Source: Owenia fusiformis
Lineage: Eukaryota; Annelida; Polychaeta; Sabellida; Oweniidae
Length of the DNA: 64,000 nt
NCBI GenBank assembly: GCA_903813345.2
Contig: CAIIXF020000007.1
Span: forward strand, 20,757,564-20,821,563
Direction of reading: 5' to 3'
This document shows positions 5,661 through 62,341 of this stretch, in pieces (the stretch's first letter is position 1; each line of letters opens with the position of its first letter). Both the position numbers and the translations under genes were made by a program. The notes beneath the pieces were generated by a model. That model was not told the DNA's origin. It saw nothing but the letters and a program-made list of their open reading frames with translations, and did not search any database.

Positions 5661-6371
5661 CGCAGTAATTTATTTAATAAATTTCTAGTATTAGGCATCA
5701 TATCCCTTCATGAATCGAATTTGCCAATAGGAGACAATACTTCTTAGTGTTTTTTTCTGGTTTACAAAATGACTAATGATTTTATTAAATATATTTTGAT
5801 CAGTGGGATTTGCCACTGTGCTGAGTTGATATTTTTCTAGTTATATAAAGTAATCCAGGGGCATATTTAGTAGCGAGCTTTCAGTCAGGGGGTGCGATCG
5901 CTCCCATCATCTCCCCCTCCCCTGGCTACACCTATATTCTGTGTTATCATTCAGCATTTATATTGTATAAAAGTATATTAAAGGGACAACAAGGCCTATA
6001 GAGAGAAAATTTCTGAGCTACCAGGGCAATATTTGGCTTAACATCTTCTTTGACATACCTATTTTCTTAAAATGTATGGATAAACTATCAATTTCAGCAT
6101 TAAGAAGTGTAAATTCAGTTCAAAGCTTCTATAAAAGGAGTCCCACTTATCGATTTTTAAGATCCACCATGTTTCAAGAGGAATATCAGCTGAAATAATG
6201 TTCATCCAGGGGGTTTCTTTATGTATGTCCAATGTATTGATCGGAACCTTATCTTTCATTTGACACCAACAATGGCTCAAATGGACCACATCAAAGCTTA
6301 CAATAAATTATCAAAAAATATTTTCGATCTGTTGAGCTTTATATATTAAGTTTTTATCAATGTCATTGAAA
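5661..6371. other. Non-coding stretch with a repeat end
   Basis: No gene was seen. The segment at 5807-5845 (GGGATTTGCCACTGTG and the following TTTTTCTAGTT) resembles 12237-12275 in the palindrome spacer, so both are probably ends of one interspersed repeat family. Confidence 0.45.
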
Positions 6372-7380: not shown

Positions 7381-10376
7381 CATAAACGATGAGGCACATG
7401 GCCAAAGCACATGATTATGTGTGGTAGATGTGCATCCACTTTCTTAAAACAGATCAGACTGTTATTAATGAACTTAACAACCATGTATATATAGTAGAGT
7501 GTTTATGTGTCAAAAAATAGGCTTCAATCAAAGTAGTGTGATCTTGATGACTGTCAATCATTAAAGCAATTATATGAAACAAATGTCCATTTATCAATGA
7601 ACATTGAACAAAAGTGTTTCCCATCCCAAATAACCCTTTCAGAGATGAAAAATTCCTGTCCCTATTTTTGTCAAAACTCAATAACCCTTACTATGTGTAC
7701 ATATCAGATTGATTTGATCATAATGAAGTCTGGGTAATTATAATATAATTAACAAATTATACAAATATAAAGATCCTTAAGACAATGTACTGCTGGATCA
7801 GTAACTTTGTATCTTTCCTATCTACTGGTTCTCCATCATAATTTTTCACTGGCTATGACATTAATTATTGAGAATTATAGACTGAAACCAGTCATACGTA
7901 GTTTTCTCCTGGTGACCCATTATGATTACATTATTGTGTTTTGGCATTGGCTTTGGGATGGATGTTGACGCTTTGGAATGCTTATGGACTTTGATTCTGG
8001 ATTTTGGACTGAAATTTGTCTGTCCCACATCATTTGAGACTGAATGTTCTATCCTGGGGCAATACTTGTATCTGGAACTATTTACAAACATTTCTAGTCA
8101 TTTTTACACACTGGCACTTGTGCATACATACTCCTACACAATCATTTTCAATGGTAATAAGACACAAGTGTTCTAAAGTATAAAGATTATATTGATCTAG
8201 ATGTTGGCTTTTTACATTTCATTTAATTTATATTCAATATGATATTTATTGGCCTGTTTTCCCCACTTAATCTTGCCATATCTAATCAATCTGATTCAGC
8301 TTTATTTCCTTATATAAAGTATTTCTTTTACAAATTGATATCTGACCTGCATGCTTGAAAATACCAAATATCATTTTTATGTCACAATCGAGAAGTGGTG
8401 ACATATTGTTACTGTCACCTTTTCTGTGCCTGGCATTCAGCATTTGGATTTGTAACAAATGGTTACTCTTTTGTAGATGTGACATAGTCAGTTTGAAGCA
8501 TCCAGCTGTGGAACAGTGCTCGAAATATGAGGTTTAAATAAATTCACAATTTTCGAACAAAAAGTCCTTCAAATACCACTTTTTGAAATGAAATGAGACA
8601 TTCTGATAACATTGGGTGAGACTGCAATATAAACCAAAGTGGTTTAGACTTTATACGAGGCCTTTAAAAGAAATGTATGCAAAATCATGTATGCTTAATT
8701 CAATGGTGAATGCCATATGTTCCATGAATAATGTTTGCTCTCTGAGAATTTTGTTGGTGATAGAAGAGCTGTTACATCAAAACTCATTTAGGTGTTTAAA
8801 CAATTCCAACTCAGCAAATATTTGAATATACTATGTCAGTGTAAAATTTTTATATTTGATATACTAAGGCACAAATGCTTGATTGGGTGCTAAATAAATA
8901 GAGGATATCCTATGATTTTTATCCATGAGTGGATATCGTCCATCTTCATCCCATAGAATCAGTGTGGATGGTGTTTGAACGTTTCCTTGTGGCTGTTTAC
9001 AACCATTATAAGCTTCATTAGTTTGCATGATGAAATATTTGGAATCCAGATTCAACTTAGTTTAGCTGAAATCGGAAGTTTATCGAAAAATTTTGGCCAC
9101 CATCTTGAACGATAATAACTGCAGTTTGAGCCATCCAGCTGTGGGTCAGTGTAGAGGTCACACATATCTTTTAATAATTTCACCTGAGTGACATCATGAT
9201 GATATAAAATGCTTTCTCAAACTGGCTCCATTCAGTGGACTCACATTCATATTTAACTTTTTTTTAAATTTCTAAATAACTATTCAAGTCATGAAAAAAG
9301 TAAATTAATAATAAAAACATATTTTCAACCTTTACATGGGGCCTTTAATATCCAAACCAATGTTCTATTGGTATTGTTTAAAAAGCTAATTGAATATTGA
9401 TTTCAATTACATATTTAATATAATTTAATGTTTTGGGTTTCTATTATTTCTATTCATGATAGGAGAATAGAATCTTGCATTAAATTAAGAATATCTATAC
9501 AATTTTATTTAACAATGATCTACATACTTTGTAGTTTGGTTGAATGGCTATGAACCATAAGTTCTGAGATGTATCACCAAAATGACGAAGAAGTGATGAT
9601 GAAGAACACGTCGAGCAAATTTCACTTGATATATCAGATTTTAATCGTAGCCTTATTGCTTTCACTGAAAGACATCAATAATCCTTCCAAATTGAAATTT
9701 TAGAGAGAACGGATTTTGCATACAAAGAACTAAAACTGATTGACAGATGCTATCACCTGATAGCTGGCCCAAATGCTATTAAGATCTTGTTGCACAGCTC
9801 TGATTCTGGATTTTTTACATGTTTTTTTTAAATATATCGTCACATGATATGTAATCACTCTCTCATATTTGTACCTCTTGCTAATGATACCTTTGAGCTA
9901 CTTTATATGAATTCTAATTGAATTTGATCAATCTAGAAGATTGAAAATTGAAGAGGAGAAAATACTTGTCAAAAAGTGGCTCACTTTTTCGGGGCAGCCG
10001 ATAGATAAAAATGATTGCTATCATATTATTGCTAGCTATAGGATAAATACATGTGTATCATGTCACAATAATAAGTAACAGTAAGATTCCATTTTATTTT
10101 TAAAACCTTATATTCCATAAATGGTAGCTAATGGTAGATAACCATTATTAAATATAAATGAAAAAGAGATACTACAAATAGTATACTTCAGAGATTAACA
10201 TGATTAACTCACTGTTTATAGTTTCAAGAAAACTGAATTGTTTCAAGTAGCAGCAAAAGACAGAAAGTATGTAAAACGTTTTATCCCATACTTGGACGTG
10301 TTACGGGTACATAAAGCTGGTTTGTAAAAACTTATATTTTCATCAGCGGGCAGATATAGCTTTACGTCCCGCTCCG

Positions 10377-10405
10377 AGCGGGCAGATATAGTATATCTGC
10401 CCGCT
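10377..10405. repeat. 29-bp perfect GC-capped palindrome
   Basis: AGCGGGCAGATATA and its reverse complement flank a single central G at 10391. A further GCGGGCAGATATAG lies just upstream (about 10345). The mirrored copy is at 12889-12917. It would extrude easily as a hairpin. Confidence 0.9.
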
Positions 10406-10677
10406 ACGTCATAATCGCCGCTCGCATATTTGTTCATAATTTGTAACGTTCGCGTAATGACTGTAAACTACAATGGAGAAAACACAGACAATCGGGATCT
10501 GTTTGATGGTTTAAAAAGGGAAAGAGCATCCACTTAATCAATCAAAAATTCGAGAAAGTAAATGTGGGAATATTTGAGAGAACAGGAAAATCCGTCCACG
10601 GCCAAGAAAACAAAACTGGACATTAATATTCTAAAATATTTCCACGATTGAACAATGTGAACCAGATGACCAAGATT

Positions 10678-10856
10678 GGTATGGGATAAACATATTATCC
10701 TATAGTCGGTTCAGGATATTGGGATTATCCCTTGGCCAATATAATATATTTTCCCTCGGGACCTGCGGCCCTCGGGCAAATACATTATATTTGCCTCGGG
10801 ATAATCCCAATATCCTGAACCTCATATAGGATAATCTCTATGGATGCATCCCTATA
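10678..10856. repeat. Foldback element with GC-rich loop
   Basis: GGTTCAGGATATTGGGATTA on the left is mirrored by TAATCCCAATATCCTGAACC on the right. The arms enclose a loop containing CCCTCGGGACCTGCGGCCCT. The outer parts pair less perfectly (ATTATCCTATA with TATAGGATAAT). The mirrored copy is at 12438-12616. A half element related to the right arm lies at 60212-60258. Confidence 0.85.
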
Positions 10857-10894
10857 TTTCCTTTATAGTCCTAAAATATATCAAAAGTACATTT

Positions 10895-11881
10895 GATCAA
10901 CAGTAATTTAACATGCACTTTGTTTAGCATGTCCGATCCATGTATGTCTAATGATCTCTGAACTTCAAATGCTTTTTCTATGTGAGTTATTTTTTTCTTG
11001 GTTCAATATTAAAGCAAATCAAACTTGTGTCATATTTGAGGGAGTGTGTGAGTAACATGTTTCAATGAATTTTTTTTATGATTTTTCTTCTAAATTGAGT
11101 ATAGTGGGCCTTTAAATATACATGTTCTTTGACACTGGTCTTTGGTCTTTGAATGGCCCCTCTGCACTAATTGTTTCACCTTTAATAGTAGTTTTAAACT
11201 TTTAAAAAGTCTGTTTCATTGAAATAGATAGGTAGTGGTTGGTCCTAGATTTTAAGGAATGAATTGTTTCAAGAATCTATTGTTGACTGTAGACCATTGA
11301 ACTGTTGCAATTGAACAGTTATATTCAATCAAATCTCAAATATATATTGCATTGAAAAAATGTATAAGAGAACAAATGGTATTAGTTTAAATGTTTTTCA
11401 TTTGATCAGTGCATTGTATTTTCAGATTAATTGGAGCAATATTTAAATATCATGTACAACTGAAGAAATATTAAAGATACAGCAAAGTTGAATGATTTAT
11501 TGAAAGTTATCAATATTTTACAATACTCTTTGCATTCATTGAGTTCTGACTTTATTATCCCAATGAACGAAGTTTGGTAGGGATATAGTGAAGGCCTCTG
11601 TCCGTCAGTCTGTCTGGCCGTCCATACTGGCTGTCTGGCTGATTACTAGTTGACATATTTATACAGATGTATTTTGGTGAATAGTTTTATGCAAAAAAAA
11701 TTTTTTCAAGATGGCCACTGCTTTTGAAATGGCAGAAATTTTTCGCAAAAATCTTATGTTTTATTTTAAACCAAAGTAACAAATGTTATATGTTATTATT
11801 TAAATTTTGGTAGTATATTCACAAAATGAATGGGGGTTTGGGAAAACAGAAATTTGCTTTAATTTTGAGATGTTTTTGAAG
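10895..11881 (+). repeat. Direct repeat A, right copy, first part of the palindrome spacer
   Basis: Same sequence as 6372-7358. It overlaps the end of the left arm by two bases (GA), a microhomology at the junction. Unlike the left copy it runs on without a break into 11882-12397, so this looks like the ancestral arrangement. Confidence 0.95.
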
Positions 11882-12397: not shown

Positions 12398-15300
12398 TCA
12401 AATGTACTTTTGATATATTTTAGGACTATAAAGGAAATATAGGGATGCATCCATAGAGATTATCCTATATGAGGTTCAGGATATTGGGATTATCCCGAGG
12501 CAAATATAATGTATTTGCCCGAGGGCCGCAGGTCCCGAGGGAAAATATATTATATTGGCCAAGGGATAATCCCAATATCCTGAACCGACTATAGGATAAT
12601 ATGTTTATCCCATACCAATCTTGGTCATCTGGTTCACATTGTTCAATCGTGGAAATATTTTAGAATATTAATGTCCAGTTTTGTTTTCTTGGCCGTGGAC
12701 GGATTTTCCTGTTCTCTCAAATATTCCCACATTTACTTTCTCGAATTTTTGATTGATTAAGTGGATGCTCTTTCCCTTTTTAAACCATCAAACAGATCCC
12801 GATTGTCTGTGTTTTCTCCATTGTAGTTTACAGTCATTACGCGAACGTTACAAATTATGAACAAATATGCGAGCGGCGATTATGACGTAGCGGGCAGATA
12901 TACTATATCTGCCCGCTCGGAGCGGGACGTAAAGCTATATCTGCCCGCTGATGAAAATATAAGTTTTTACAAACCAGCTTTATGTACCCGTAACACGTCC
13001 AAGTATGGGATAAAACGTTTTACATACTTTCTGTCTTTTGCTGCTACTTGAAACAATTCAGTTTTCTTGAAACTATAAACAGTGAGTTAATCATGTTAAT
13101 CTCTGAAGTATACTATTTGTAGTATCTCTTTTTCATTTATATTTAATAATGGTTATCTACCATTAGCTACCATTTATGGAATATAAGGTTTTAAAAATAA
13201 AATGGAATCTTACTGTTACTTATTATTGTGACATGATACACATGTATTTATCCTATAGCTAGCAATAATATGATAGCAATCATTTTTATCTATCGGCTGC
13301 CCCGAAAAAGTGAGCCACTTTTTGACAAGTATTTTCTCCTCTTCAATTTTCAATCTTCTAGATTGATCAAATTCAATTAGAATTCATATAAAGTAGCTCA
13401 AAGGTATCATTAGCAAGAGGTACAAATATGAGAGAGTGATTACATATCATGTGACGATATATTTAAAAAAAACATGTAAAAAATCCAGAATCAGAGCTGT
13501 ACAACAAGATCTTAATAGCATTTGGGCCAGCTATCAGGTGATAGCATCTGTCAATCAGTTTTAGTTCTTTGTATGCAAAATCCGTTCTCTCTAAAATTTC
13601 AATTTGGAAGGATTATTGATGTCTTTCAGTGAAAGCAATAAGGCTACGATTAAAATCTGATATATCAAGTGAAATTTGCTCGACGTGTTCTTCATCATCA
13701 CTTCTTCGTCATTTTGGTGATACATCTCAGAACTTATGGTTCATAGCCATTCAACCAAACTACAAAGTATGTAGATCATTGTTAAATAAAATTGTATAGA
13801 TATTCTTAATTTAATGCAAGATTCTATTCTCCTATCATGAATAGAAATAATAGAAACCCAAAACATTAAATTATATTAAATATGTAATTGAAATCAATAT
13901 TCAATTAGCTTTTTAAACAATACCAATAGAACATTGGTTTGGATATTAAAGGCCCCATGTAAAGGTTGAAAATATGTTTTTATTATTAATTTACTTTTTT
14001 CATGACTTGAATAGTTATTTAGAAATTTAAAAAAAAGTTAAATATGAATGTGAGTCCACTGAATGGAGCCAGTTTGAGAAAGCATTTTATATCATCATGA
14101 TGTCACTCAGGTGAAATTATTAAAAGATATGTGTGACCTCTACACTGACCCACAGCTGGATGGCTCAAACTGCAGTTATTATCGTTCAAGATGGTGGCCA
14201 AAATTTTTCGATAAACTTCCGATTTCAGCTAAACTAAGTTGAATCTGGATTCCAAATATTTCATCATGCAAACTAATGAAGCTTATAATGGTTGTAAACA
14301 GCCACAAGGAAACGTTCAAACACCATCCACACTGATTCTATGGGATGAAGATGGACGATATCCACTCATGGATAAAAATCATAGGATATCCTCTATTTAT
14401 TTAGCACCCAATCAAGCATTTGTGCCTTAGTATATCAAATATAAAAATTTTACACTGACATAGTATATTCAAATATTTGCTGAGTTGGAATTGTTTAAAC
14501 ACCTAAATGAGTTTTGATGTAACAGCTCTTCTATCACCAACAAAATTCTCAGAGAGCAAACATTATTCATGGAACATATGGCATTCACCATTGAATTAAG
14601 CATACATGATTTTGCATACATTTCTTTTAAAGGCCTCGTATAAAGTCTAAACCACTTTGGTTTATATTGCAGTCTCACCCAATGTTATCAGAATGTCTCA
14701 TTTCATTTCAAAAAGTGGTATTTGAAGGACTTTTTGTTCGAAAATTGTGAATTTATTTAAACCTCATATTTCGAGCACTGTTCCACAGCTGGATGCTTCA
14801 AACTGACTATGTCACATCTACAAAAGAGTAACCATTTGTTACAAATCCAAATGCTGAATGCCAGGCACAGAAAAGGTGACAGTAACAATATGTCACCACT
14901 TCTCGATTGTGACATAAAAATGATATTTGGTATTTTCAAGCATGCAGGTCAGATATCAATTTGTAAAAGAAATACTTTATATAAGGAAATAAAGCTGAAT
15001 CAGATTGATTAGATATGGCAAGATTAAGTGGGGAAAACAGGCCAATAAATATCATATTGAATATAAATTAAATGAAATGTAAAAAGCCAACATCTAGATC
15101 AATATAATCTTTATACTTTAGAACACTTGTGTCTTATTACCATTGAAAATGATTGTGTAGGAGTATGTATGCACAAGTGCCAGTGTGTAAAAATGACTAG
15201 AAATGTTTGTAAATAGTTCCAGATACAAGTATTGCCCCAGGATAGAACATTCAGTCTCAAATGATGTGGGACAGACAAATTTCAGTCCAAAATCCAGAAT

Positions 15301-15913
15301 CAAAGTCCATAAGCATTCCAAAGCGTCAACATCCATCCCAAAGCCAATGCCAAAACACAATAATGTAATCATAATGGGTCACCAGGAGAAAACTACGTAT
15401 GACTGGTTTCAGTCTATAATTCTCAATAATTAATGTCATAGCCAGTGAAAAATTATGATGGAGAACCAGTAGATAGGAAAGATACAAAGTTACTGATCCA
15501 GCAGTACATTGTCTTAAGGATCTTTATATTTGTATAATTTGTTAATTATATTATAATTACCCAGACTTCATTATGATCAAATCAATCTGATATGTACACA
15601 TAGTAAGGGTTATTGAGTTTTGACAAAAATAGGGACAGGAATTTTTCATCTCTGAAAGGGTTATTTGGGATGGGAAACACTTTTGTTCAATGTTCATTGA
15701 TAAATGGACATTTGTTTCATATAATTGCTTTAATGATTGACAGTCATCAAGATCACACTACTTTGATTGAAGCCTATTTTTTGACACATAAACACTCTAC
15801 TATATATACATGGTTGTTAAGTTCATTAATAACAGTCTGATCTGTTTTAAGAAAGTGGATGCACATCTACCACACATAATCATGTGCTTTGGCCATGTGC
15901 CTCATCGTTTATG
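12398..15913 (+). repeat. Large inverted repeat, right arm (3516 bp)
   Basis: Mirror image of 7381-10896. The symmetry is lost at 15914 on the outside and below 12398 on the inside. The right flank from 15914 shows no duplicated material, in contrast to the left flank, so this arm is probably the original copy. No gene is recognisable in it. Confidence 0.97.
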
Positions 15914-23646: not shown

Positions 23647-26600
23647 TTATTCCCTGTTATTTTCCCAGGGAAAACATGTTATTATGGAATAAAACCATTT
23701 ATTTAATGATGTAGGTTTTTCATATTCTTTATCTAATAAATTTTTATATATGTTTTTACAGGTAACATCTTTTGGTTTTTGAAAGCTGCTTTTTGTTGCA
23801 GGACTATTTTTTAATAACTTCCATAAGTTTGGGATAGCACTTACTATTCCTCTATACTTCATGAAATCTATTTTAATACCAAATTCTTCACTTAAAGATT
23901 CTTTAGTTTTAAAAGAATCATCTCTATTAAGAAGATCATTTATTTTGTTTATTCCTGCAGCATGCCATTCTTTATAGAAAATTGACTTGTTATTCACCTT
24001 TATGTGTTTGTTGTTCCATATATATTGAAGTTTGACATCTTCCCATGTTTCAATTTTATTTTCGTTAAAGGAAGCCCAAACATCTAGCATTTTTACATAA
24101 AATTTTGGCAAATAATTTAAGTTTAAGAAATTTGTATTGAAGTTGCAGTCAAACAAGAATTTGCCACCACTTTGTCCAAGATATGCCAGGGGTATGGTCA
24201 TCCAGGTTGTTAATTTATTCTTTTTAAACCTATTTATCCAAACGCCTTTAATGGCTTTATCCATTAAATGATAATCAATCATTTTAAGACCACCTTCCTC
24301 AATTGGCGCAATTATAGCTTTGGTTTTAACTTTAGGAGGCTTTTTATTCCACAAGAATTCAAAAATTGCTTTATTGATATCATTTATTATGTTCTCAGGA
24401 ATATATTGTACTGCACTTAAAAATGTTAGCTGTGAGATACCTAATGATTTAATTATTTTAATTTTTCCTTCAGAAGTTAAGTTTCTTTGTTTCCAAATGT
24501 TCAGTTTACTTTTCATGGCTTCTACTTTAGTATATACACTATTGTTCACTTCAACTTGATTGTAAGAAAATGTGACACCAAGTGCGCTCACTGCTGCTTT
24601 GGGTTTAATGTCTAAAACAGTATCAGAACTCTCCCGTTTTGCTCCTACCCACATAGCGTCTGTCTTGTTCTTATTAATTTGTAGACCTGAACACTTTTCA
24701 AAGTTTTCTAATATTTCCATTACTCGTTTTGCTGATGCTTCATCTTTAATGAATACTGTTGTATCGTCAGCATATTGTGTCACCCGAGCTTCAATTTCAT
24801 TTGTTATGTTGATACCTTCTATATCTTTATCTGACCTTAATGCTATACTCAATACTTCTGCAACCATTATAAATAGAATTCCTGATATTGGGTCACCTTG
24901 TCGCACACCACGCTCCATTTTAAAAAATTCAGATGCTTTCCCATTATTCAAAATTGTGCTTTCAGGGTTATTATGAAGAGCCTTAATAAAATTAATGAAA
25001 ATTGGACCAAAGTTAAATTTTTGTAATGTTTTCAACATGAATGACCAATTAATACTGTCAAACGCTTTTTTGAAGTCAATTAACAGGAATATTCCATTCT
25101 TATTGTTATCTTTGGTAAATTCCATAAGATCTTTCATTAATCGTATACTTTGTCCAATAAATCTACCCTCTACATAGCCAGTTTGATCTTCGTGTATGAT
25201 TTTTGGTAAAATTTTCCTGAGTCTATCACTAAGTACCTTTGTGCAAATTTTATAATCATAATTTAAAAGGGTAATAGGTCTCCAATTTTCTAAATGCTGT
25301 TTATTTTTATTTTTCTTAGGAATAAGTGAGATGATGCCTCTTTTTTGTGATATTGATGCTTCTCCCTTTATTAATAAGAAATTAAAACTTTTAATCAAAT
25401 CCTCTTTGATGAAATCCCAAAATGTAAGGTAAAATTCAACTGTTAACCCATCACAGCCTGGGGTTTTATTTTTCTTAAATGATTTTAAGGCATGTAAGCA
25501 TTCTTTTTCAGTTAACTGTTGTTCACAACTATTCTTATCTTCCTCACTTATTGTTGGTATATTATCATTTAAAAATTCCCTTTCATATTGTGGATTGCTT
25601 TCTCTTTTACTGTACAAATCTTTATAAAATTGTCTTTCTGTTTCTAATATTTCTGAACTTTCTGTTACTAACTTTCCCTGCTTGTTATATATTGAGTTAA
25701 TTACCTTTTTTGTAAAATTGTTTTTTTCTAAGTTCAGAAAATACTTGCTAGATTTTTCTCCATATTCACACCAGTTTGCTTTGCTCCTTATCATACTGCT
25801 CCTTGTTCGTCTATCTTGTATTATTTCAACCTTAAGTTTCGATCTATTGTATTGCATTAAAGTGTTCTCATTTTTATTTTTATCTAATTCCAACTGTGCT
25901 TTATTCAATTTAACCAAAGCTTCTTTCTCTTCATTTTTCCTTTCTCTGGCCTTGTTCTTACTGAATTTCAAACATTTTAATCTAATTTCCATTTTAATCA
26001 TGTCCCATTTCAGTCCTGAGTCAGTTACATCAATATATTTTATTTTTGCTTCCTCAATTACTTTTTGCATGCTCTCTAAGTATTTGGGGTCTCTATCAAA
26101 CATAGCATTATATTTCCAGAAACCTGGTCCACGTTCTTTGAAGTCCTTAGGAGTGTAGTTTAAAACAGCTGCATGATTGTCAGAGGAGGGGCCCCATATG
26201 ATATTTGTTTGTAGTTGGTCCATTAAAGTAGAGCTTACAAGCCAGTAGTCTAATCGACATTGTACCTTGCAGGCTTTATCACTCCAAGTAAAACGTTTCT
26301 CCAGTGGGTGCTGATTTCTCCAGACATCAATTAAATTATTAGTTTCTATTAGATTAAAAATTTTATCAATAACGTGATGCTTTTCATTTACAGGTCTTCC
26401 TCCTTTTTTATCTATTTCTGAAAGTGAACAATTAAAATCACCCGCACATAAAATGTTCTCAATATTTGGATTATTATTGTTTATCATATTACTTATATTG
26501 TCAAAAAAATCTAATTGCTGGTTCCTATCATTTGGTGCATATAAATTTAATAAGCAGTATAGATTCCCGTCTATTTCTACATTTAATAGGACATATCTTC

Positions 26601-26874
26601 CTTGTTTGTCAATTTTCTCTTCTACAATGGTTGCTTCAACCCTATCAGATATCAGAATCAAAACTCCCTTGCTATGTACAGTTCCATGTGAAAACTTAGC
26701 TATGCCATTCCATTCATTTTTCCATTTCTGTTCTGTTTTCCTCAGGCTATACGTTTCTTGTAAAAAGACTATGTCGAATTTCTGATTTTTTAACCACCTA
26801 AATATGTTCATGCGTTTTCTGGCTTTATTAAGACCTCTCACATTGAGAGTAATTGCGTTAAGTTTTGTTGTCAT
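23647..26874 (-). CDS. LINE ORF2: AP-endonuclease plus reverse transcriptase (1075 codons)
   Basis: Residues 1-240 form an apurinic-type endonuclease domain: LNVRGL (N11), FLQETY (E40), YAPND (Y112), GDFN (145-148), FTWSD and RLDYWLV (D209). The closing SDH motif reads S-D-N followed by His, so the usual catalytic His may be substituted. The reverse transcriptase domain covers about 450-780, with TPGCDGL, NWRPITLLN, LLIDFKKAFD (597-606), RQGDP (658-662) and the catalytic YADD (701-704). This order and the motif style are those of L1/Tx1-group non-LTR elements, in which the protein nicks target DNA and primes reverse transcription. The start is the first Met of the endonuclease domain. The frame ends prematurely because a foldback and minisatellite interrupt it; the C-terminal part continues at 22674-23186. 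Confidence 0.93.
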   Translation of the reverse strand: MTTKLNAITLNVRGLNKARKRMNIFRWLKNQKFDIVFLQETYSLRKTEQKWKNEWNGIAKFSHGTVHSKGVLILISDRVEATIVEEKIDKQGRYVLLNVEIDGNLYCLLNLYAPNDRNQQLDFFDNISNMINNNNPNIENILCAGDFNCSLSEIDKKGGRPVNEKHHVIDKIFNLIETNNLIDVWRNQHPLEKRFTWSDKACKVQCRLDYWLVSSTLMDQLQTNIIWGPSSDNHAAVLNYTPKDFKERGPGFWKYNAMFDRDPKYLESMQKVIEEAKIKYIDVTDSGLKWDMIKMEIRLKCLKFSKNKARERKNEEKEALVKLNKAQLELDKNKNENTLMQYNRSKLKVEIIQDRRTRSSMIRSKANWCEYGEKSSKYFLNLEKNNFTKKVINSIYNKQGKLVTESSEILETERQFYKDLYSKRESNPQYEREFLNDNIPTISEEDKNSCEQQLTEKECLHALKSFKKNKTPGCDGLTVEFYLTFWDFIKEDLIKSFNFLLIKGEASISQKRGIISLIPKKNKNKQHLENWRPITLLNYDYKICTKVLSDRLRKILPKIIHEDQTGYVEGRFIGQSIRLMKDLMEFTKDNNKNGIFLLIDFKKAFDSINWSFMLKTLQKFNFGPIFINFIKALHNNPESTILNNGKASEFFKMERGVRQGDPISGILFIMVAEVLSIALRSDKDIEGINITNEIEARVTQYADDTTVFIKDEASAKRVMEILENFEKCSGLQINKNKTDAMWVGAKRESSDTVLDIKPKAAVSALGVTFSYNQVEVNNSVYTKVEAMKSKLNIWKQRNLTSEGKIKIIKSLGISQLTFLSAVQYIPENIINDINKAIFEFLWNKKPPKVKTKAIIAPIEEGGLKMIDYHLMDKAIKGVWINRFKKNKLTTWMTIPLAYLGQSGGKFLFDCNFNTNFLNLNYLPKFYVKMLDVWASFNENKIETWEDVKLQYIWNNKHIKVNNKSIFYKEWHAAGINKINDLLNRDDSFKTKESLSEEFGIKIDFMKYRGIVSAIPNLWKLLKNSPATKSSFQKPKDVTCKNIYKNLLDKEYEKPTSLNKWFYSIITCFPWENNRE

Positions 26875-28864
26875 AAATAACCAAAAAATAACGTTGCTTT
26901 GTTAACTTGTTGAGTATACATACAGAGTAATACCAAAACATCTTAATTTGGCCTAAAACAATATGTTTAGGCTTTGTTATATATTTACTTAAAATAGCAT
27001 TTCCATTCCACAGACACTCTTCCTTGCATTCAATAACATTCACACACACCCACTGAAGTAATATTAGTAAAATCTGGATTTTCATTTCAAGTTTTATCTG
27101 TCAGTGTTTAGAGCAGGGTACTTCCTACCCTGCAATATTGCAGCTTAGAACAAGTTAAAAAAAAGTAAAAAGTGCTGCAATGAAGGCTTTAAAGCTTTAT
27201 CGAGCAGTTGACTCATCTCATGCTGTAACATGAATATATGGTTCCTTATTTACATGGATAATAATAAATAAAATCTGCCTAGAGAAAGAAATAAAAGTAA
27301 AAATCGCAATGGTTCTAAATTGCTTTTCCATTCGCACTTAGAGCGATATTTTGATAATTTGTCAGATTGTGTCAATCAAAAGTTCAATCGAGTTTTCATC
27401 TGGCATCTGAGATCAAGTGTGTACAAATATAAAACTCGCGGAATAGTGTTAGTTTGGTCCACACAAGAGTTGAAAATCCACGAGTCACTGAGTTTATATA
27501 CTCACTTTTATGCATTTGTCTAAAAACATAAGGTTAACATGTTTGAGAAAAAGTTTATCAAAAATGTATTTTTTGTGGGCATACTGTTGACCAACTAGAC
27601 AAACTTTGCAGTAATTTCTAATTATGCGTACATGTGACAAGATTTGTCAAAGGTTACCATGTTTAAAAAATATTTTGATGAAAAGTCACTTATCAAAGAA
27701 CAAGTAATTTCATATACAGCTGATCCTTTCACAGCAAAATATCTCAAATAATATATCTTAAAACTCATTTTCATACAACTAAAGTAATGTTTAATAGATG
27801 TCACTTTAGCATAGATATTTCCAACTGGAAGGGAGAATATGTGTGGGAGGGGGATTGACTGTTTCAATAATGTTATCAAATTTTCCAAACATTGGCCAAT
27901 TTGCCTTAAAGTGCATATGTTTGAACTGTGCATAAATTCTGCTTCACTTGCCATTCACACAAATATCAGTATAGCTACTCTAGTACATTGTTTGTGATCA
28001 GATTCATATTTGTAATACTTATTGAACTAGTTTATAACTAGTTTGCAATATACTGAATGAGCTTCTGATGTTTGGTATGACTTATTGAACTAGTTATGCA
28101 AATAACAAGTGAAAAACTCAGGCATGGTTATTGAACTCAGATTGGAATAAGACATTTTATTTCTATTGAATATCTTCCCAGTACAATATTCTTTATAATC
28201 CGTTGATGTTCAATGTTACTTATTCCATCTTCAATTTTTCAGTTTGAAATCAATACATTGGAATTATATAGTGGTAATTAGCAAATGTTGTTTTGTTGCA
28301 TATTGCTGAGGTGGTTCTAAGGGGAATTAACTTATCAATGTTAAAGTGTTCTTACAGTCATTTCACTGCTATTTGTTTTTAATTTAACTTGTATGAACCT
28401 AACCTCAAAAATGTGAAACAACTCAACATTGCAAGAATGACCTCAGGCAATGACACAGTTTCTATAGTTCTAAATCAATGTCTCTTTGGAGGTCTACCAT
28501 ATGTATCTACAATGACTGTTTATGTTCCCCAGATGGGGAATATGTATATTAAATGTTCATATTCATAGTAAATCAATTCAAAATATTGCAATGTGAACTC
28601 ATTATTCTTATGTGGCCTTCATGAATGTTTTACTCTTAAATTCATTAGTGGTATAACTATATGTGCATTTTAACTCGTGGATTAAGCACACTTTTTTACT
28701 GGATCTTCTCATGCTTCATGATCTCTACAAAAAGTCTTTACTATGATAGTTCTTGATTCTCATCTATCTGATGAGCCAATGGATTATAACATGGAAAAGT
28801 CTATTTAAAGGAATGTTAGCCTATGCTATCACCCCTGCTAAATATTGAAGGTTCATATTACTTT
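26875..28864 (-). other. 5' region of the LINE insertion, no ORF1 found
   Basis: L1/Tx1 elements normally carry ORF1 here. The longest minus-strand frame in the region (27622-27954, 110 codons) shows no coiled-coil, RRM-like or CCHC features. Either ORF1 has decayed or been deleted, or part of this interval is unrelated DNA. Confidence 0.5.
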
Positions 28865-40440: not shown

Positions 40441-40657
40441 AAAGTTTGCAATGTCAAGATCAATACATGCTTTTGATTTGGCCATAATTCGAGTAGGCTC
40501 ATGAACAATTTATTTCCCATAAGAATTTCTTTCTCCCCTTTTGAATCTGACATTCCATTTGGCCAACCATTAAATGAACCCCTTCAATCACAAGTTAAAC
40601 CTGTCCCTCGTGATGTACTCTTACAATGTTAACCTGTTTAAATGTATGGTTTTTCAG

Positions 40658-41319
40658 ACAACATCACTTCAGCAGAGACGCTATATAAAACAGTACGTGT
40701 ACTTTGCTGGATCATGACTAGTCCACAGAACCTGAAAAAGAAGGCTCAACATGTCAGGGCCACCTGGGCAAAGCGCTGTAATATCGTTATCTTCATAAGC
40801 TCTGAGACAAATAAAGATTTCCCAACCGTGGGGGTTAATACAACTGAAGGCAGGGAACATTTAACTGCTAAAACAATGCAGTCATTCAAATACTGCTGGG
40901 ATAACTATAGGGACCAAGCTGATTGGTTCCTCAAAGCTGACGATGATACATATGTCATTGTAGAAAATTTGAGATATTTACTATCAGCTTACAAACCAAC
41001 AGATCCTATATTCTTTGGACATAAGTTTAAAGTAAATGTGAAACAGGGTTATTTCAGTGGTGGGGGCGGTTATGTATTATCTCATGAGGCCTTAAAAAGA
41101 TATGCTGAGAAAGGAGTGAAAGATCCTGTACATTGCCAACCCGATGGAGGGGCAGAGGATATAGAGATGGGAAGGTGCATGGAGCATCTGGGGGTCACCG
41201 CAGGAGATTCAAGGGATGCTTTAGGACGTAGTCGCTTTCATTGTTTCAGTCTTCGAACTCATCTTGATAGTTTATACCCTCAATGGTTTTACCATCACGA
41301 TGCAAATGGGGCTAAGGGC
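40658..41319 (+). CDS. C1GALT1: C1GALT1-like copy 2, catalytic exon
   Basis: The exon runs from the TTTTTCAG acceptor (AG at 40656-40657) to a GTAAGT donor at 41320 and encodes residues 93-313. It opens with VRVLCWIMTSPQNLKKKAQH and RATWAKRC, the start of the T-synthase catalytic domain, then has SSETNKDFPTVGVNTTEGRE and KADDDTYVIVENLR with the DxD motif at 187-189. KQGYFSGGGGYVLSHEALKR, the EDIEMGRCME block and AGDSRDALGRSRFHCF follow. Two further N-glycosylation sequons are present (94, 153). Relative to copy 1 the differences concentrate near the exon end (copy 2 SLRTHLDSLYPQWFYHHDANG), while long stretches before it are identical. Expected role: Golgi core-1 O-glycan synthesis from UDP-galactose. 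Confidence 0.97.
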
Positions 41320-41501
41320 GTAAGTAGATGTTTTTTTCTAATCTGTAACAAACTAGGTATGTTCAAATGTGACACAAATATTTTTGACCCACTTTCGACT
41401 TCCTGTCAGCCATTTTGAAGTGTTATATTTTTCTTCTAAAGAAAAGGTGCTTAAATATTGAATAAAATAGAGTGAAATCGAATTGTAATGCGTGATTGTA
41501 G

Positions 41502-49380: not shown

Positions 49381-49733
49381 CGATTGCATTGTTATTTATT
49401 TGATCAGTCAATTGCACATCAATCAGTTGCATTTTTATTTATTTGATCAGTCAATTGCAAATCAATTGGTTGCATCGTTATTTATTTGATCAGTCAGTTG
49501 CAAATCAATTGGTTGCATCGTTATTTATTTGATCAGTCAGTTGCAAATCAATTGGTTGCATTGTTATTTATTTGATCAGTCAGTTGCAAATCAATTGGTT
49601 GCATTGTTATTTATTTGATCAGTCACTTACAAATCAATTGGTTGCATTGTTATTTATTTGATCAGTCAGTTGCAAATCAATTGGTTGCATTGTTATTTAT
49701 TTGATCAGTCAGTTGCAAATCAATTGGTTGCAT
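49381..49733. repeat. 43-bp minisatellite (about 8 copies)
   Basis: Units contain TTATTTATTTGATCAGTCAG and TTGCAAATCAATTGGTTGCA. The inner units are nearly identical and the edges degrade into looser CAATCAGTTGCAT words to about 49840. Not coding. Confidence 0.95.
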
Positions 49734-49740
49734 TTTCATC

Positions 49741-51926: not shown

Positions 51927-53078
51927 TAAGTCGGAACAAGTAGAATGAAATATCTGGCTAAACTAAATTAAGTTGGGTCAAGTAGAATGAAATATCTGGC
52001 TATAGTTAATTAAGTTGGGACAAGTAGAATGAAATATTTGGCTAAACGTAATTAAGGTGGGACAAGCAGAATGATTTTTTTGGCTAAACTTAATTAAGGT
52101 GGGAAAAGCAGAATGAATTATCTGGCTAAACTTAAATAAGGTGGAACAAGCAGAATGAATTACCTTGCTAAACTTAATTAAGGTGGGACAAGTAGAATGA
52201 AATATCTGGCTAAACTTAATTAAGGTGGGACAAGCAGAATGAATTATCTGACTAAACTAAATTAACGTGGGACAAGCAGAATGAATTATCTGGCTAAACT
52301 TAATTAAGGTGGGACAAGCAGAATGAATTATCTGGCTAAACTTAATTAAGGTGGGGAAAGCAGAATGAATAATCTGGCTAAACTTAAATAAGGTGGGACA
52401 AGCAGAATGAATTATCTTGCTAAACTTAATTAAGGTAAGACAAGCAGAATGAATTATCTTGCTAAACTTAATTAAAGTGGAACAAGCAGAATGAACTATC
52501 TGGCTAAACTTAATTAAGGTGGGACAAGCAGAATTAATTATCTGGCTTAACTTTATTAAGGTGGGATGAGCAGAATGAACTATCTGGCTAAACTTAATTA
52601 AGGTGGGACAAGCAGAATTAATTACCTGGCTAAACTTAATTAAGGTGGGACGAGCAGAATGATTTATCTGGCTAAACTTAATTAAGGTGGGATGAGCAAA
52701 TGAATTATCTGGCTAAAGTCCATTAGGGTGGGACAAGCAGAATGAATTAATTGGCTTATCTTAATTAAGGTGGGACAAGCAGAATGGATAATCTGGCTAA
52801 ACTTATTTAAGGTGGGACAAGCAGAATGAATTATCTGGCTGAACTTAATTAAGGTGAACAGACTTAATTAAGGTGGGACAAGCAGAATGAATTATCTGAC
52901 TTAACCTAATTAAGGTGCGACAAGCAGAATGAATTATCTGGCTAGACTTAATTAAAGTGGGACAAGCAGAATTAATTATCTGGCTAAACTTAATTAAAGT
53001 GGGACAAGCAAAATGAATTATCTTGCTAACTCAATTAAGGTGGGAAGGACAAGCAGAATGAATTATCTTGCTAAACTT
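51927..53078. repeat. 42-bp minisatellite (about 27 copies)
   Basis: The unit includes GGTGGGACAAGCAGAATGAA followed by TTATCTGGCTAAACTTAATT. Copies differ by point changes and a few indels (for instance near 52855 and 53040). Frames across it contain stops, so it is not coding. Confidence 0.95.
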
Positions 53079-56000
53079 AAACTTTTGACATATACACATA
53101 CATTGTGCAGATTTCTAAAAGGCCTACCGGCAAGTTAGAAAATATTTCAGTCATGTAAAGCAGGTGAAACGTATAATATTTATTATGTCTGTGTAATTGG
53201 TAGGTTTACAGTTTAGCTTGTGTTGCATTCATACCACCCAATAAGATATCTTAGAATTTTGATACATTCATAAAACCTGCTTTTAGAAGTAATATTTGTA
53301 CAATGCATTGTATACCACCTCCTTCTACTTAATTAAGGGTGTATGTCACAGTAAAAACAGAATTATTTGAATTCTTGGTCAATGTTCAAAATTCAGCTTA
53401 TAATTACAAACTATGCATTAATAACTGTTAAACACTTGAGTACAATTATGTAATCTGATTGGTTGAAATTGTACACATGATCATACAAAGACTTCTGGGT
53501 ATCAACCTCTACAGTTTCACCAGACAAACATGAATCTTTATAAATGAATATCATAAACATATCATAAATAAAAACACATCAGGTCACTTGTGTCAATTAA
53601 GATGTGATTGCATAAATAAAAGAATCATTTCAGTACAGCAAGTCAACCTTTTTAAAAACATGCAGTTGGACAGGCAGGCATGCTGACATAGGTATGCATA
53701 AAAAATAAAAACACGATAAGAGCCAAAATATGCCACTTTGTACAATTGATACATAACTAAGTAAATGGTTAAGTATCATGAAACATATATTTTTAAGTGT
53801 TCAAAAGGACTGGAAAATCAAATTAACCTTAAACTTGGACATACATCAGTAATCGGATTTAAATAAAATGTTAAAAAGAAAAATATTTCCTGTGTTTACT
53901 TGCGAGTGTGACTCACACATGTACCAAGTGGCAACTACACCTTGACAAGATCACAGTAACTTAATTGATCCTTTGTGGATATGATACCATCAAGAACTTG
54001 AAAACCTCAGATGTATTAAACAACAGAAACCTAATGGATTAATAATATACAATAAAAAACACATCGCTAGATTGAACAATGGACATGGGGGTAAATTATG
54101 CCACAGTGCACATTAGAAAGATTGAGTATACACAACAGTAATCTAATGACAAACATGGTTTTCAAACCTTTACGGAACTCCAGGAAAAAGGTAAGGAAAT
54201 CAATTGCAAAGAACTGAAGATGAAGCTTATTTTTCTGAAAGGAATAGATGATAAATAATTGTTTTGTCTTTTATGGCATGGAAAAGAAATATGAAATACT
54301 TAAAAGCTGAAATGCTTTTAAATAATTATTTTGTCTTAATTAGCATGAGAAAGAAATATGAAATGCTTGGGCTGAAAGTTTTTTTCTATCATAGGGAATA
54401 ACTCAACTTAGCCTCCTCCCCCCCCCCCCCTCAGTCATCCCTTAGGAGAGGGAGGGGTGACCTTTTCTATCACTATGCTTAGGAGGAAATAAGAAAACTG
54501 GTATTAGGGAAGCATTGGGATATTTGTTATATAATGAAATTAACATTTTTTAATTCTATAGATATTGTGATTCTTTAGTAAAACATGGGAACATAATGCT
54601 GTAAAATGTGGTCCTCTGACTGAAAATGACCTGCAATCTGTATCAGGGTCTTAGGGTAAGCTTGTCTTAAGTTTGCACTGATATAAGATTTTTACATAAC
54701 ACTATCAATTTGATAACTGCATTCATTGATTCTATTGCAGACCTTTTAATATTTGCATGTCACACAAAAAAAACACAAGTAATATTATAATGTTCATAAG
54801 ATCACATAAAAAGAACAATGTTTGTCTATCCATTAAAGAATAACAAAAAGGTGTTCTTGTGACCTTCATTACACATCTCCAGTTACACAAAACACATAGC
54901 TCCCAATTGAATTCTTTTGAGGGCTATTGTTGTAGAATAAAGACTAAAGAGTACGTAAAGAAACACAATGATCACATATTTGTTTATTTTAATTTCTTTT
55001 ATTCAATTTCAACGGCTCATATTATCCAAGGGACACTAACGGTAAAACAGAAATAAGCCTATTTCACATAATTTAAAAATAAATTTTAAAAGTACAAACG
55101 TGCTACCATATTCTATATTATCCAGGTGGATCTGTTTTTAAGTGGATAAATCACATTAATGTAATATTATGTTAATATCAAGAATGGTAAGTTAAAGTTA
55201 TTTCATGGTGGAACTAATGTTGTGTCTGTTTCATGTAGTTTATGACAACTAATTCACATTACCACAAAACAGCTAGTTTATTTTGTAGGCACAACAGATA
55301 ACATTACAAAAATAGGCTACAGAGCAATACAAACCCCTAAAAACCATGGCAAAATAAAGTAAAGCATTATTTTATATTAGGCTTTTATTTATGTCTAACT
55401 TAAACTATTCATATGGTTGGATTTTAAGCTAGTATTTAGTAGGATTACATGTATTTGATGCTTAGTAATGTCAATAAAATAATAATCATTGAGGGCATTC
55501 CAAAATTGGAATTTTTGTCATTGTGGGGTCTGAATTCACTGTCATATTTGAAAGCTTAGTAAACTGCATTTTATACATGATGTGCTCCAGCAAAACCTTT
55601 AAGTGTCATTGCATTATAATTATTTCCCATAAAAGCTATGTATATGTATGTTATCAACTACTAAAATATAAACTATTATTAATAAAAAACAATAACATTT
55701 GATTGGCTATAATATTTATACAGTTCAACCTGGGAACAAGGATATTTTATATTCAAATTTTGTCAACCTCATTTTACAGCATTTATAATTTGAAAGTTTG
55801 GGTTTGAAAAAGATTTTAAGAAATATACAGTAGTTCAACATGTTATACAATTTTGTTATCTCTAAAATAGTTGCGTCTGGATCTCTAGATTAGCACAATT
55901 AGTCAGATGGAATTAAACTTTGTTGGAAGATTTGCATTCTTGTAATAATGGCAATTAATAATCACAAACAGATTAAAACACTTAAGATTATAAGGGTAAT

Positions 56001-56139
56001 TAACAGTGGATGGGATGTCCCATCCTGTCCACAATTGGCTTATCCTAATCTCTCATATTAATCAAAGCTCTTTTAGAATCAGATATTGGCTAAAACCATT
56101 TACAACCTCTGAAAAACTGTGGAATAACAGTGGCCAATT
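53079..56139. other. Non-coding stretch with a poly-C run
   Basis: About 3 kb of AT-rich DNA without a recognisable gene. A C run of about 12 bases starts near 54419 and ends in a pyrimidine/purine-rich patch (GGAGAGGGAGGGG). Confidence 0.5.
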
Positions 56140-56351
56140 TTACATGTTCCTTGTGAACAGGTGAATTTTCATATTCCTTGTGAACAGGTGAATTTTCAAA
56201 ATTTGCCCTAAATAGTGTTCCTTGTTCCCAGTACTAGTAGGACCCAGTTGACAGGTTTTCCTTACAGTCAAAAATTTGTTCTTTTGAAAAGTGTTCCTTG
56301 TTGTCAGGCGTTCCTTTCAGAAAGGTGTTCAGTCGGACAGGTTTTACTTTA
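56140..56351. repeat. Decayed element of the ACAGGTTTTACTTTA family
   Basis: Repeated TTCCTTGTGAACAGGTGAAT and GTGTTCCTTG words end in GGACAGGTTTTACTTTAG, the same terminus as 48526-48708. Confidence 0.5.
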
Positions 56352-58109: not shown

Positions 58110-59656
58110 TTTTTTTTTTTTAATATTCCAGTTTATTTCGATCAATCATCAAATGTGTACATAAGAAAAATTGCCAAGGTTATTAGATAACATTAGCGGC
58201 AATTGTAACTATTTTGACAAAAAATATTGATTGATTAGTAAAATACACTGAACATTTGCAATAATATGGAATGTATTACTGTGTTTACTCTGCTTGCCCC
58301 ACCCTCTACCTCAATTCTTTACCCTAGTTATTAAAAAGATCTTGATCAAGAGCTTTAAAAGCTTGACTAGTGAAGTGAGCTGAAATCTCAATTAATTTTT
58401 CATTGACTTCAACACTTAAAGAATTGTCACCATACAAGAGAAAATCAGTTTTATTTTGGTTTGAAAAGTTTTCAAATTCACTTAAAAGATTTAAGTCTGT
58501 TAGCCCTGCAAGTAAAACATCTCTTTCATTCACAAGCAGTGGACATTTAACCAGAAAATGCTCTGTAGTTTGAAACCTAGAACCACATGGACATTTAGGA
58601 TCAGTTACTGAGACAAAGTTGTGAGAATATAGATGGCTATTCAAGAGGAGGCCAGCTCTAAGCCTATTAAAAACTATCTCAATATGTCTTGGCATAAAAA
58701 TATTCATTTTCGAAGTTGATACAGAGACCAGGCTCATGCACTCTCTTACTGATTTTTTAAATCTTGAAATAGGTTGACCAACTCTGGATGTATTTGGAAG
58801 TTTATTCCATAGGGTCATGGATTTAAATAATGTGGACTTCTCACTAGACACACTAATCTGGTTTGGAATCCGATAGTCTGGCTGGGATCTTAAGTTTCTA
58901 GTATGAGTGATTTCATAGGAGCGAACTAAATCACATATGAAAGGTGGAAAACAATTAAACCGTGCTTTAAAAATAAATATTTTCAAATGTTCTTCTCTTC
59001 TAGATGCAAGAGATTTCCAATTTAGGGATGCAAATACCTTGTCAGTACTTGATCCATGTATTGCACCAGATATCAAACAGGCTGCTCTGTAATGTAACTT
59101 ATCTAGAGCTTGGAGTTTGGTTAAGGAAGCTTTGTTGTAAATTATGTCACAATAGTCATAGTGAGGTATAAAGTAAGCATTATAAATTGTCTCAAGATGC
59201 TTGGCTGATAATTTTTTGCATAGAGCTTTCAATGGTCTGATTAAGTTGTTAATCTTTACAATTAATTGGTCGATGTGTGCATTGAAATTTAGTTTACTGT
59301 CCATGACTAATCCGAGGTGTTTATGCATTATACATTTGGGAACTTCTTCATCCCCTAAAAACAGGGGAGACTGATTGTTAACTTTGGTGCGTACCCCTGA
59401 AAATGTTATATCAGCACTCTTTTGGGCTTTGAATTTCATTTTCCACACTGAAGCCCAATTGTTTAGAGTGTCAAGGTCATGTTGTAATGGCTGATTAATG
59501 TTCATGTGTACTTCATTTTTATCATATGCATCATACAGAGAAGTGTCGTCGGCAAAGATGAAAGTTTTAGAATTAAGATTATCCGGCAAATCGTTAATAT
59601 AAATTAGAAAAAGTAGGGGTCCCAAAACAGACCCCTGTGGAACACCGGCATTGATG
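58110..59656 (-). mobile_element. 5'-truncated CR1/Jockey-like LINE with 12-bp target-site duplication
   Basis: ATTTTTAGGTGT occurs at 58098-58109 and 59657-59668, flanking the element. A T run at 58109-58121 is its poly(A) end. The encoded product begins at INAGVPQGSVLGPLLFLIYI, then FADDTSLYDAY (the catalytic FADD), HDLDTLNNWASVW, SMTLWNKLP, and a C-terminal CPCG-x9-H-x4-C motif, to a stop at 58324. At least 433 codons are open without a break, so the copy is young, but the endonuclease and the first RT motifs are missing and it cannot move by itself. It lies antisense in the probable intron of the RA gene, 110 bp before the exon at 59779. Confidence 0.95.
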
Positions 59657-59778
59657 ATTTTTAGGTGTCAGAAAGTAACTAGGATTGCATGCCCTTAGTT
59701 TACTTAGTTCAACATAAAATGGGTAAGGATTCATTGGAGAAGTATTTCCTGACTTTATTTGTGCACTTTTGCTTTCAG

Positions 59779-60026
59779 GGCACAGTAAAAGTGTATGCCA
59801 CCATTGTGTCGTCCAAATTCGAAGCAGAAAAGTATGACATCACAAACGAAACAACTGCAAAAGATCTGATTGGTCAAATACTGCTAGAGAATGGAATGAC
59901 AAGTCGTGACAGGAACCTGTACTACATGACATTGAACCTCTCTAGCAATGGAGGTGGGAAAGTGGAGACAATTGCGGATGATGAATTGCCAATTTCCATA
60001 CTTCAAAAAATGCAGATGGACACAAG
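59779..60026 (+). CDS. RA-domain gene, exon encoding first Ras-associating domain
   Basis: The exon runs from a TTGCTTTCAG acceptor to an AAG|GTATGG donor at 60027, with phase 0 in and phase 2 out. It encodes GTVKVYATIVSSKFEAEKYD, then TTAKDLIGQILLENG and NLYYMTLNLS, then ADDELPISILQKMQ. The pattern of an initial beta strand, TT-x-x-[DE][LV]I-x-x-[LM]L, a Y-x-L strand and a D-x-[CE]-P-x-x-[IL] turn is that of RA (RalGDS/AF-6) ubiquitin-fold domains, which bind GTP-loaded Ras/Rap-type GTPases. Afadin/canoe, RADIL/RASIP and RASSF proteins are candidate relatives; I cannot choose between them. The 5' exons are unknown or doubtful. Confidence 0.8.
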
Positions 60027-60321: not shown

Positions 60322-60385
60322 TTTTATCCTGAAGATGAAGAATGGGGAGCTGGTGAAGATACATGATACTTGTCTCCATCCTCAT
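60322..60385 (+). CDS. RA-domain gene, 64-nt exon completing the first RA domain
   Basis: After the acceptor CTGCAACAG (60313-60321), one base completes the Ser codon split from the previous exon. Twenty-one codons follow (FILKMKNGELVKIHDTCLHP then His), ending in phase 0 at a CAT|GTAAGT donor. FILKMKNGE is the usual last strand of an RA domain. Incoming and outgoing phases match the neighbours exactly, which is the main support for so short an exon. Its last 13-16 bases plus the donor are the founder sequence of the 31-bp array that follows. Confidence 0.78.
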
Positions 60386-61375
60386 GTAAGTAATCTTCTC
60401 TTGTCTTGGCCTATATATATAAAATTTTCTTTTGCCTCCATCTTCATGTAAGTAATCTTCTATTGCCTCCATCCATATGTAAGAAATCTTCTTTTGCCTC
60501 CATCCTCATGTGAGTATAATCTTCTTTTGCCTCCATCTTCATGTAAGTAATCTTCTATTGCCTCCATCCATATGTAAGCAATCTTCTCTTGCCTCCATCC
60601 GCATGTAAGAAATCTTCTTTTGCCTCCATCCTCATGTGAGTAATCTTCTTTTGCCTCCATCTTCATGTAAGTAATCTTCTATTGCCTCCATCCATATGTA
60701 AGCAATCTTCTCTTGCCTCCATCCACATGTAAGTAATCCTCTCTTGCCTCCATCCTCATGGAAGTAATCTTCTCTTGCTTCCATCTTGATGTAAGTAATC
60801 CTCTCTTGCCTCCATCCTCATGTAAGTAATACTCTTTTGCCTCCATCCTCATGTAAGTAATCCTCTCTTGCCTCCATCCTCATGTAAGTAATCCTCTCTT
60901 GCCTCCATCCTCATGTAAGTAATCCTCTCTTGCCTCCATCCTCATGTAAGTAATCTTCTTTTGCCTCCATATTCATGTAAGTAATCCTCTTTTGCCTCCA
61001 TCCTCATGTAAGCAATCTTCTCTTGCCCTCATCCCTATGAAAGTAATCTCATATTGCCATCATCTTTGTCTGTTTGTGTAAGTAATCCTCTCTTGCCTCC
61101 ATCCTCATGAAAGTAATCTTCTCTTGCCCTCATCCTCTTGTAAGTAATCTCATATTGCCCTCATCCCTGTGTAAGTAATCTCATATTGCCCTCATCCCTA
61201 TGTTAGTAATCTCATATTGCCCTCATCCCTATGTAAGTAATCTCATATTGCCCTCATGCTCGTATAAGTAATCTTTTATTGCCTCTACCTTCATGTAAAT
61301 AATTGTCCCTTTCATCTACCCTCATGTCAGTAATCTGAATTGCCTCCACACTCAAGTAATTAGTCCTCTCTTGTA
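60386..61375. repeat. 31-bp minisatellite made of duplicated 5' splice sites (about 30 copies)
   Basis: The consensus contains TTGCCTCCATCCTCATGTAA followed by GTAATC and a pyrimidine stretch. The first unit overlaps the exon end (TGTCTCCATCCTCAT|GTAAGTAATCTTC). After a spacer of about 30 bp, about 30 further units follow. Most keep CATGTAAGTAAT or CATGTAAG, close to the metazoan donor consensus CAG|GTAAGT. Later units (61020-61260) shift to CCCTCATCCCTATGTAAGTA. Units contain no acceptor-like AG after the pyrimidines, so only donors are multiplied. Minus-strand open frames across the array are artefacts. Confidence 0.93.
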
Positions 61376-62208: not shown

Positions 62209-62341
62209 TCATTCTCGAAGAATCTGTTTGTATCAGGGAAGACGACAAGTCATGAGGTCATTGCGTTACTTCTGCAGGGTTACAGATCTAACGAAGATGC
62301 TGATTTGTTCATGCTCCAGGGAGTTGATCAAACTGGAAAAG
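62209..62341 (+). CDS. RA-domain gene, exon starting the second RA domain
   Basis: The exon follows ATTCATTTTCAG (AG at 62207-62208) and ends at AAAAG|GTAAAAC. Phase 0 in, phase 1 out. It encodes SFSKNLFVSGKTTSHEVIAL, LLQGYRSNEDADLFMLQGVD and QTGKG. K-TT-x-x-EVI-x-x-LL followed by the D-x-F-x-L strand again fits an RA domain start. Only about 35 residues separate it from the first domain, giving a tandem RA arrangement. The rest of the domain must lie beyond the window or in an exon I did not find before 64000. Confidence 0.8.

Follow-up and report, generated by a model that had tools for sequence, protein, structure and literature searches.

A 31-bp minisatellite across the donor boundary of a predicted RA-domain exon: a long case of a rare repeat kind

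Predicted RA exons and a tandem array across their splice junction

The window, by which we mean the whole stretch of 64,000 nucleotides analysed, carries on its forward strand three predicted exons (59779-60026, 60322-60385 and 62209-62341) that have AG/GT borders and, when joined, form one open frame. The joined peptide matches the Pfam RA (Ras-association) family, PF00788, with 46.1 bits (E 7.5e-12), and the exons appear to encode two such domains in tandem, RA1 and RA2. The RA2 piece, whose residues 3-52 align with profile positions 3-52 across the joint of exons 2 and 3, scores 19.0 bits, which is below the curated cut-off of 21 for PF00788, and a longer piece reaches 21.3 bits. The RA homology spans both junctions and the exons join in frame, which supports the first donor, at the end of exon 2, as the authentic one. 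The following features, read from the forward strand, are referred to throughout.

59779-60026 (+): predicted upstream exon of 248 nt with AG/GT borders, holding most of the first RA domain, RA1 (PF00788, profile 4-91, 31.7 bits)
60322-60385 (+): predicted exon of 64 nt, holding the end of RA1 and the start of RA2 (RA2 match, RA1-RA2 alignment); its final 17 nt belong to unit 1 of the array
60369-61373 (+): minisatellite of 32 whole 31-bp units and a further 4 nt, across the exon-intron boundary (TRF, wraparound alignment)
60383-60393 (+): predicted authentic 5' splice site, CAT/GTAAGTAA (slash, splice point), first intron base 60386, U1 duplex -7.1 kcal/mol; the sole unit donor that keeps the frame without a stop
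60400-60430 (+): unit 2, degenerate, its donor lost; a T in column 5 is common only to units 1 and 2
60445-60455 (+): first decoy donor, that of unit 3 (its intron would start at 60448), matching the authentic site at -3 to +8; its use would add 62 nt
60449-60451 (+): TAA, enclosed in frame if any unit donor past unit 3 is used
60526-60773 (+): two successive four-unit (124-bp) blocks, units 6-9 and 10-13, identical at 118 of 124 positions
61123-61246 (+): second unit subfamily, units 25-28 (together with unit 22)
62209-62341 (+): predicted downstream exon of 133 nt with the remainder of the visible RA2 (Pfam, reading frame); skipping it would shift the frame

Searches of the PDB with phmmer did not identify the gene beyond its tandem RA domains: the full query returned two matches, with E values of 0.82 and 1.1. 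The RA2 piece returned Ika8 and Ika4 (whole-sequence E 1.4e-4 and 0.13), which we judge to be chance matches because they add up from repeated weak matches, none of which passes by itself. Elsewhere in the window, two closely similar open frames (1-546 and 40642-41415) read like a core-1 galactosyltransferase. Two open frames on the reverse strand, 23650-26901 (1084 aa) and 58327-59667 (447 aa), are presumably reverse-transcriptase-like and apparently stem from two types of LINE, and the second stops just short of the RA exon at 59779. A perfect inverted repeat of 3516 nt (7381-10896 and 12398-15913, 100% complementary, with a 1501-nt spacer) is either very recent or an assembly fold-back.

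The intron that follows the 64-nt exon opens with a tandem array. TRF delimits it at 60369-61373 (period 31, 32.1 copies, score 1022), and wraparound alignment likewise yields 32 whole units and 4 nt. The repeat unit is CTTGCCTCCATCCTCAT/GTAAGTAATCTTCT, where the slash marks the splice point in unit 1; that unit (60369-60399), 17 nt of exon followed by 14 nt of intron, agrees with the consensus at all but one of its 31 bases. The array thus starts inside the exon, 17 nt before its 3' end, and the similarity ends sharply there, as the 14 nt upstream of unit 1 match the unit's tail at only four positions. The preliminary description, which had spoken of about 30 copies at 31-bp spacing built from the exon end and its donor, was right in this respect. 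A 22-nt core of the unit, allowing up to three mismatches, has 21 matches in the window, every one of them within the array, whereas the mean over 100 shuffles is 0.00; outside the array, no part of the window matches the unit at more than 19 of 31 bases. The array is real and lies far above chance expectation. Rfam returned nothing at its gathering threshold, and an exact 24-nt pattern of the unit was found in 0 stretches of viral contigs and 0 of prokaryotic genome contigs, as expected for an animal sequence.

Turnover of the units and ancestry of the exon end

The units fall into an inner, homogeneous set and a diverged rim. Units 3-21 and unit 24 carry zero to four changes from the consensus, whereas the edge units 2 and 29-32 carry seven to eleven; unit 2, which adjoins the exon, has 11 of 31 bases changed. 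Between these, units 22, 23 and 25-28 have five to eight changes, and the bases of the second subfamily are common to five of these six. Turnover is evident from the two 124-bp blocks, in which units 6-7 and 10-11 are identical at 62 of 62 positions, and from the second subfamily. These blocks, together with the divergence of units 2 and 29-32, correspond to the pattern of amphioxus mirages (tandem repeats across exon-intron boundaries, see below), namely concerted evolution inside the cluster from which its boundaries are excluded. Unit 1, with its single change, is the exception among the edge units, and all eight of its intron bases beyond +6 are unchanged.

Is the donor sequence held more constant than its surroundings? 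For the GTAAGT columns of units 3-31, variation is 0.080, compared with 0.130 for the other columns (P 0.23 against six random columns); among the 31 circular windows, the hexamer comes 8th. The corresponding values are 0.070 and 0.074 (P 0.57) in units 3-21, and 0.099 and 0.135 (P 0.31) in all 32 units. Extra conservation of the donor hexamer over the rest of the unit is therefore not significant in any of the three sets, by a test that is weak because the copies are not independent and that would not detect weak selection; the point estimates for the donor columns lie below the rest in all three sets, though barely so in units 3-21. Neutral expansion, one of the options listed in the preliminary description, fits this result.

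Did the exon end seed the array, or was it recruited from it? The array-homologous end of the exon encodes TCLHPH, and the consensus translated in the exon frame gives TCLHPH as well, since the sole difference of unit 1 is synonymous. Without these residues, RA2 scores 14.2 bits instead of 19.0, and its match starts no earlier than profile position 18, as it does for exon 3 alone. When RA1 is aligned with RA2 by BLASTP (E 5e-4 for this one comparison), no gap occurs through the unit-1 stretch, with 10 of 48 identities overall and one gap further on. TCLHPH fills RA positions without a gap and matches the spacing of RA1, which argues that the exon end is ancestral domain sequence and the array derived from it; most likely, then, the exon-intron junction seeded the array, as had been proposed before. 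The T in column 5, which no unit other than 1 and 2 has, fits a seed at the exon end of the array. By this ungapped homology, modest as its scores are, the exon end would be older than the array, as in a mirage. The opposite order, in which the array came first and the exon recruited its donor and last six codons from it, would accommodate the closeness of unit 1 to the consensus, the eight intron bases beyond +6 included, yet it does not sit well with TCLHPH keeping to the spacing of RA1 and occupying RA profile positions without any net insertion. That the exonic part of unit 1 differs from the consensus by one synonymous base fits, on its own, both directions. We consider such recruitment highly improbable.

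Donor copies and the predicted outcome of their use

Donor sequence persists in the array to different degrees: GT is kept in 27 of the 32 units, GT(A/G)AG in 23, GTAAGT in 16 and the exact CATGTAAG in 13, so the earlier statement that most copies keep CATGTAAG was too strong. Identity from -3 to +8 extends over 11 units (1, 3, 6, 10, 12 and 15-20), that is, the predicted authentic donor and ten intronic ones. As in the donor minisatellites of human IFI6 and ABCA7, the units therefore carry donors comparable with the authentic one. By a donor weight matrix, the array holds 10.9 sites per kb that score 5 bits or more and the remaining forward strand 0.16 per kb; at 6 bits or more, the same matrix gives 0 sites in the array and 7 on the remaining forward strand. 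The donors of the array are thus good, not top. The donors of the three predicted exons score alike (4.42, 5.09 and 3.04 bits; U1 -7.3, -7.1 and -6.8).

Nothing in the U1-duplex and weight-matrix scores favours the predicted authentic donor over the decoys; pairing with U1 is even slightly stronger in units 5 and 9 (-7.5 and -7.2) than at the authentic site (-7.1). Local folding does not favour unit 1 either, with an unpaired probability of 0.017 against 0.000-0.080 in the decoys. Extended to the first decoy, exon 2 would measure 126 nt, an ordinary exon size, so that sequence alone does not explain why the first donor should win.

What would the use of a decoy do to the message? The donor of unit 2 being lost, the next intact one is that of unit 3 at 60448, whose use would add 62 nt and shift the frame, with no stop through the end of exon 3. 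Beyond unit 3, all 25 unit donors that keep GT would enclose the TAA at 60449 in frame, at a distance from the joint of 27 nt for unit 4 and at least 58 nt for later units; in any of its three frames, the array holds 17-22 stops. The preliminary description had held that only the first donor restores the frame to the next exon, that the following one adds 62 nt and shifts it, and that later ones include this TAA. All three statements stand, the second with the proviso that it applies to unit 3.

Further tandem repeats are present in the window. A repeat of 42-bp units at 51936-53080 has a consensus with the donor-like AAG/GTGGGA (U1 -8.8), and one of 27-bp units at 56136-56198 has a consensus with the donor-like CAG/GTGAAT (U1 -8.4). 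With two more minisatellites at 4948-5669 (51-bp units) and 49384-49734 (43-bp units), whose units contain only weak donor-like sites, tandem expansion is no rarity in the window.

Known relatives and possible consequences of the array

Tandem repeats across exon-intron boundaries have been described in the globin genes of amphioxus and were given the name mirages in work on Adh3 (PMC3087553, 2010); others were added in PGBD5 and troponin C (PMC3902484). Many but not all mirage units carry splice signals and inner units are homogenised with the boundaries excluded (PMC3087553, PMC3902484), array length is unstable and cluster boundaries escape homogenisation (PMC3087553), and the Adh3 data together with RT-PCR of globin transcripts suggest no interference with regular splicing (PMC3087553). 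The array described here resembles the mirages of Adh3, BflGb6, BflGb9, PGBD5 and troponin C in that minisatellite-like duplications span an exon-intron boundary, which its tandem units include. It differs from them in consisting of 32 units of 31 bp at a donor, whereas the globin and PGBD5 mirages have few units of 60-160 bp, some of them at acceptors; the units of the Adh3 mirage measure 10-72 bp. The cases of this repeat kind that we found are few.

The minisatellite of human IFI6 has a unit of about 12 nt in about 26 copies, unlike the 31 bp and 32 units here. It is similar in that the repeat units at the donor themselves carry donors: IFI6 (6-16, G1P3) is described by the title of Turri (1995) as having a minisatellite that gives multiple splice donor sites, and by PMC4526556 as using two downstream repeat units as donors, which results in three mRNAs. 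Another parallel to an array that follows an authentic donor is the VNTR in intron 18 of human ABCA7 (PMC5954066). Its 25-bp unit begins with the two bases of the authentic donor of exon 18, the reference has 23.7 units and alleles range from about 12 to 427 (PMC5954066). A shift by one unit causes a frameshift there as it would here, and the corresponding isoform has been seen in cDNA at 2 +/- 1%, unchanged with VNTR length, whereas skipping of exon 19 strongly increases with length and longer alleles are associated with lower expression and disease risk (PMC5954066). The ABCA7 repeat differs in being C-rich and highly variable and in starting at the GT, whereas the present array starts inside the exon. 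PMC2812944 further suggests, for human paralogues, that new introns may be caused by variable tandem repeats located at exon-intron boundaries. The claim that a tandem array seeded by a splice junction is not a standard repeat class was therefore mistaken, because such repeats are named and described in amphioxus, and a donor shows this arrangement in human IFI6 and ABCA7 too. The splice-junction minisatellite is a long new case of an already described, rare repeat kind.

How might the array have arisen, and does it matter to the gene? We picture that a 31-bp segment, made up of 17 nt from the RA-exon end and 14 nt of intron, was duplicated in tandem, and that slippage or unequal exchange afterwards enlarged the array to about 32 units within the intron and turned its units over. 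Unit 1 would have been kept by coding and splicing constraint while the other units drifted neutrally. Most transcripts would be spliced from the first donor, and a small leak to unit 3 or later would yield frameshifted or stop-containing mRNA, much of it degraded. We give roughly four chances in five, or slightly less, to this reading of the array as a boundary-seeded minisatellite of the mirage and donor-VNTR kind, grown neutrally, with the first donor mostly used and decoys leaking to a minor extent. The array is most likely neutral in origin, and the splicing machinery probably ignores it for the most part, as regular splicing is apparently undisturbed in amphioxus mirages and the one-unit decoy of ABCA7 remains at 2 +/- 1%. 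Set against this reading are the ten intronic donors that equal the authentic one from -3 to +8, the slightly better U1 pairing of units 5 and 9, and local folding that does not favour unit 1. The unchanged eight intron bases of unit 1 exceed what drift at a diverged edge suggests, donor columns vary less than the rest in all three unit sets (in a weak test), the RA2 evidence is modest (19.0-21.3 bits for a cut-off of 21), and the ABCA7 array does have effects, on expression, exon 19 skipping and disease risk.

Conceivably, the decoys act as a ladder of poison donors that enlarge exon 2, include the TAA at 60449 and cut the output of the gene, with copy number tuning the loss. All 25 GT-keeping donors beyond unit 3 would enclose that stop and ten decoys equal the authentic site, yet the donor columns show no significant excess of conservation over the remaining columns and the decoy isoform of ABCA7 is constant across VNTR lengths, which makes such a ladder very unlikely. 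Tuning of decoy use by copy number and sequestration of U1, both named in the preliminary description, find no support in the present results. Alternatively, as in ABCA7, what array length changes may be the splicing of the following exon and not the choice of donor. The order of donor, array and next exon is that of ABCA7, where exon 19 skipping increases with VNTR length (p = 3.24e-13), and skipping of the 133-nt exon at 62209-62341 would shift the frame; moreover, the array is rich in TCTT, with 42.8 occurrences per kb, where the remaining intron has 5.0 and base shuffles give 16.8. That density follows from the unit sequence, however, TTCT and runs of eight pyrimidines are not above base shuffles, and the precedent is a single human gene with alleles of up to 10.7 kb, whereas the array here measures 1 kb. 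The best-founded functional lead, which comes from ABCA7, is that array length acts on the following exon and not on the decoys themselves, unlikely as we hold such an effect to be. A length-dependent rheostat, in which U1 bound to the array would divert part of the transcripts to stop-containing forms or to next-exon skipping and so set the dose, is likewise very doubtful.

Because ten intronic donors equal the authentic one from -3 to +8 and unit donors beyond unit 3 would bring a stop, the locus is a natural setting in which to ask how, among many equal donors, the spliceosome comes to pick the first. The G+C content of the window is 31-40% in 4-kb steps, and that of Branchiostoma is higher. 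If the host is not a lancelet, mirages would be shown to exist outside the amphioxus and human cases that we found. Should the rheostat be true, individuals with arrays of different length would make different doses of an RA-domain signalling protein.
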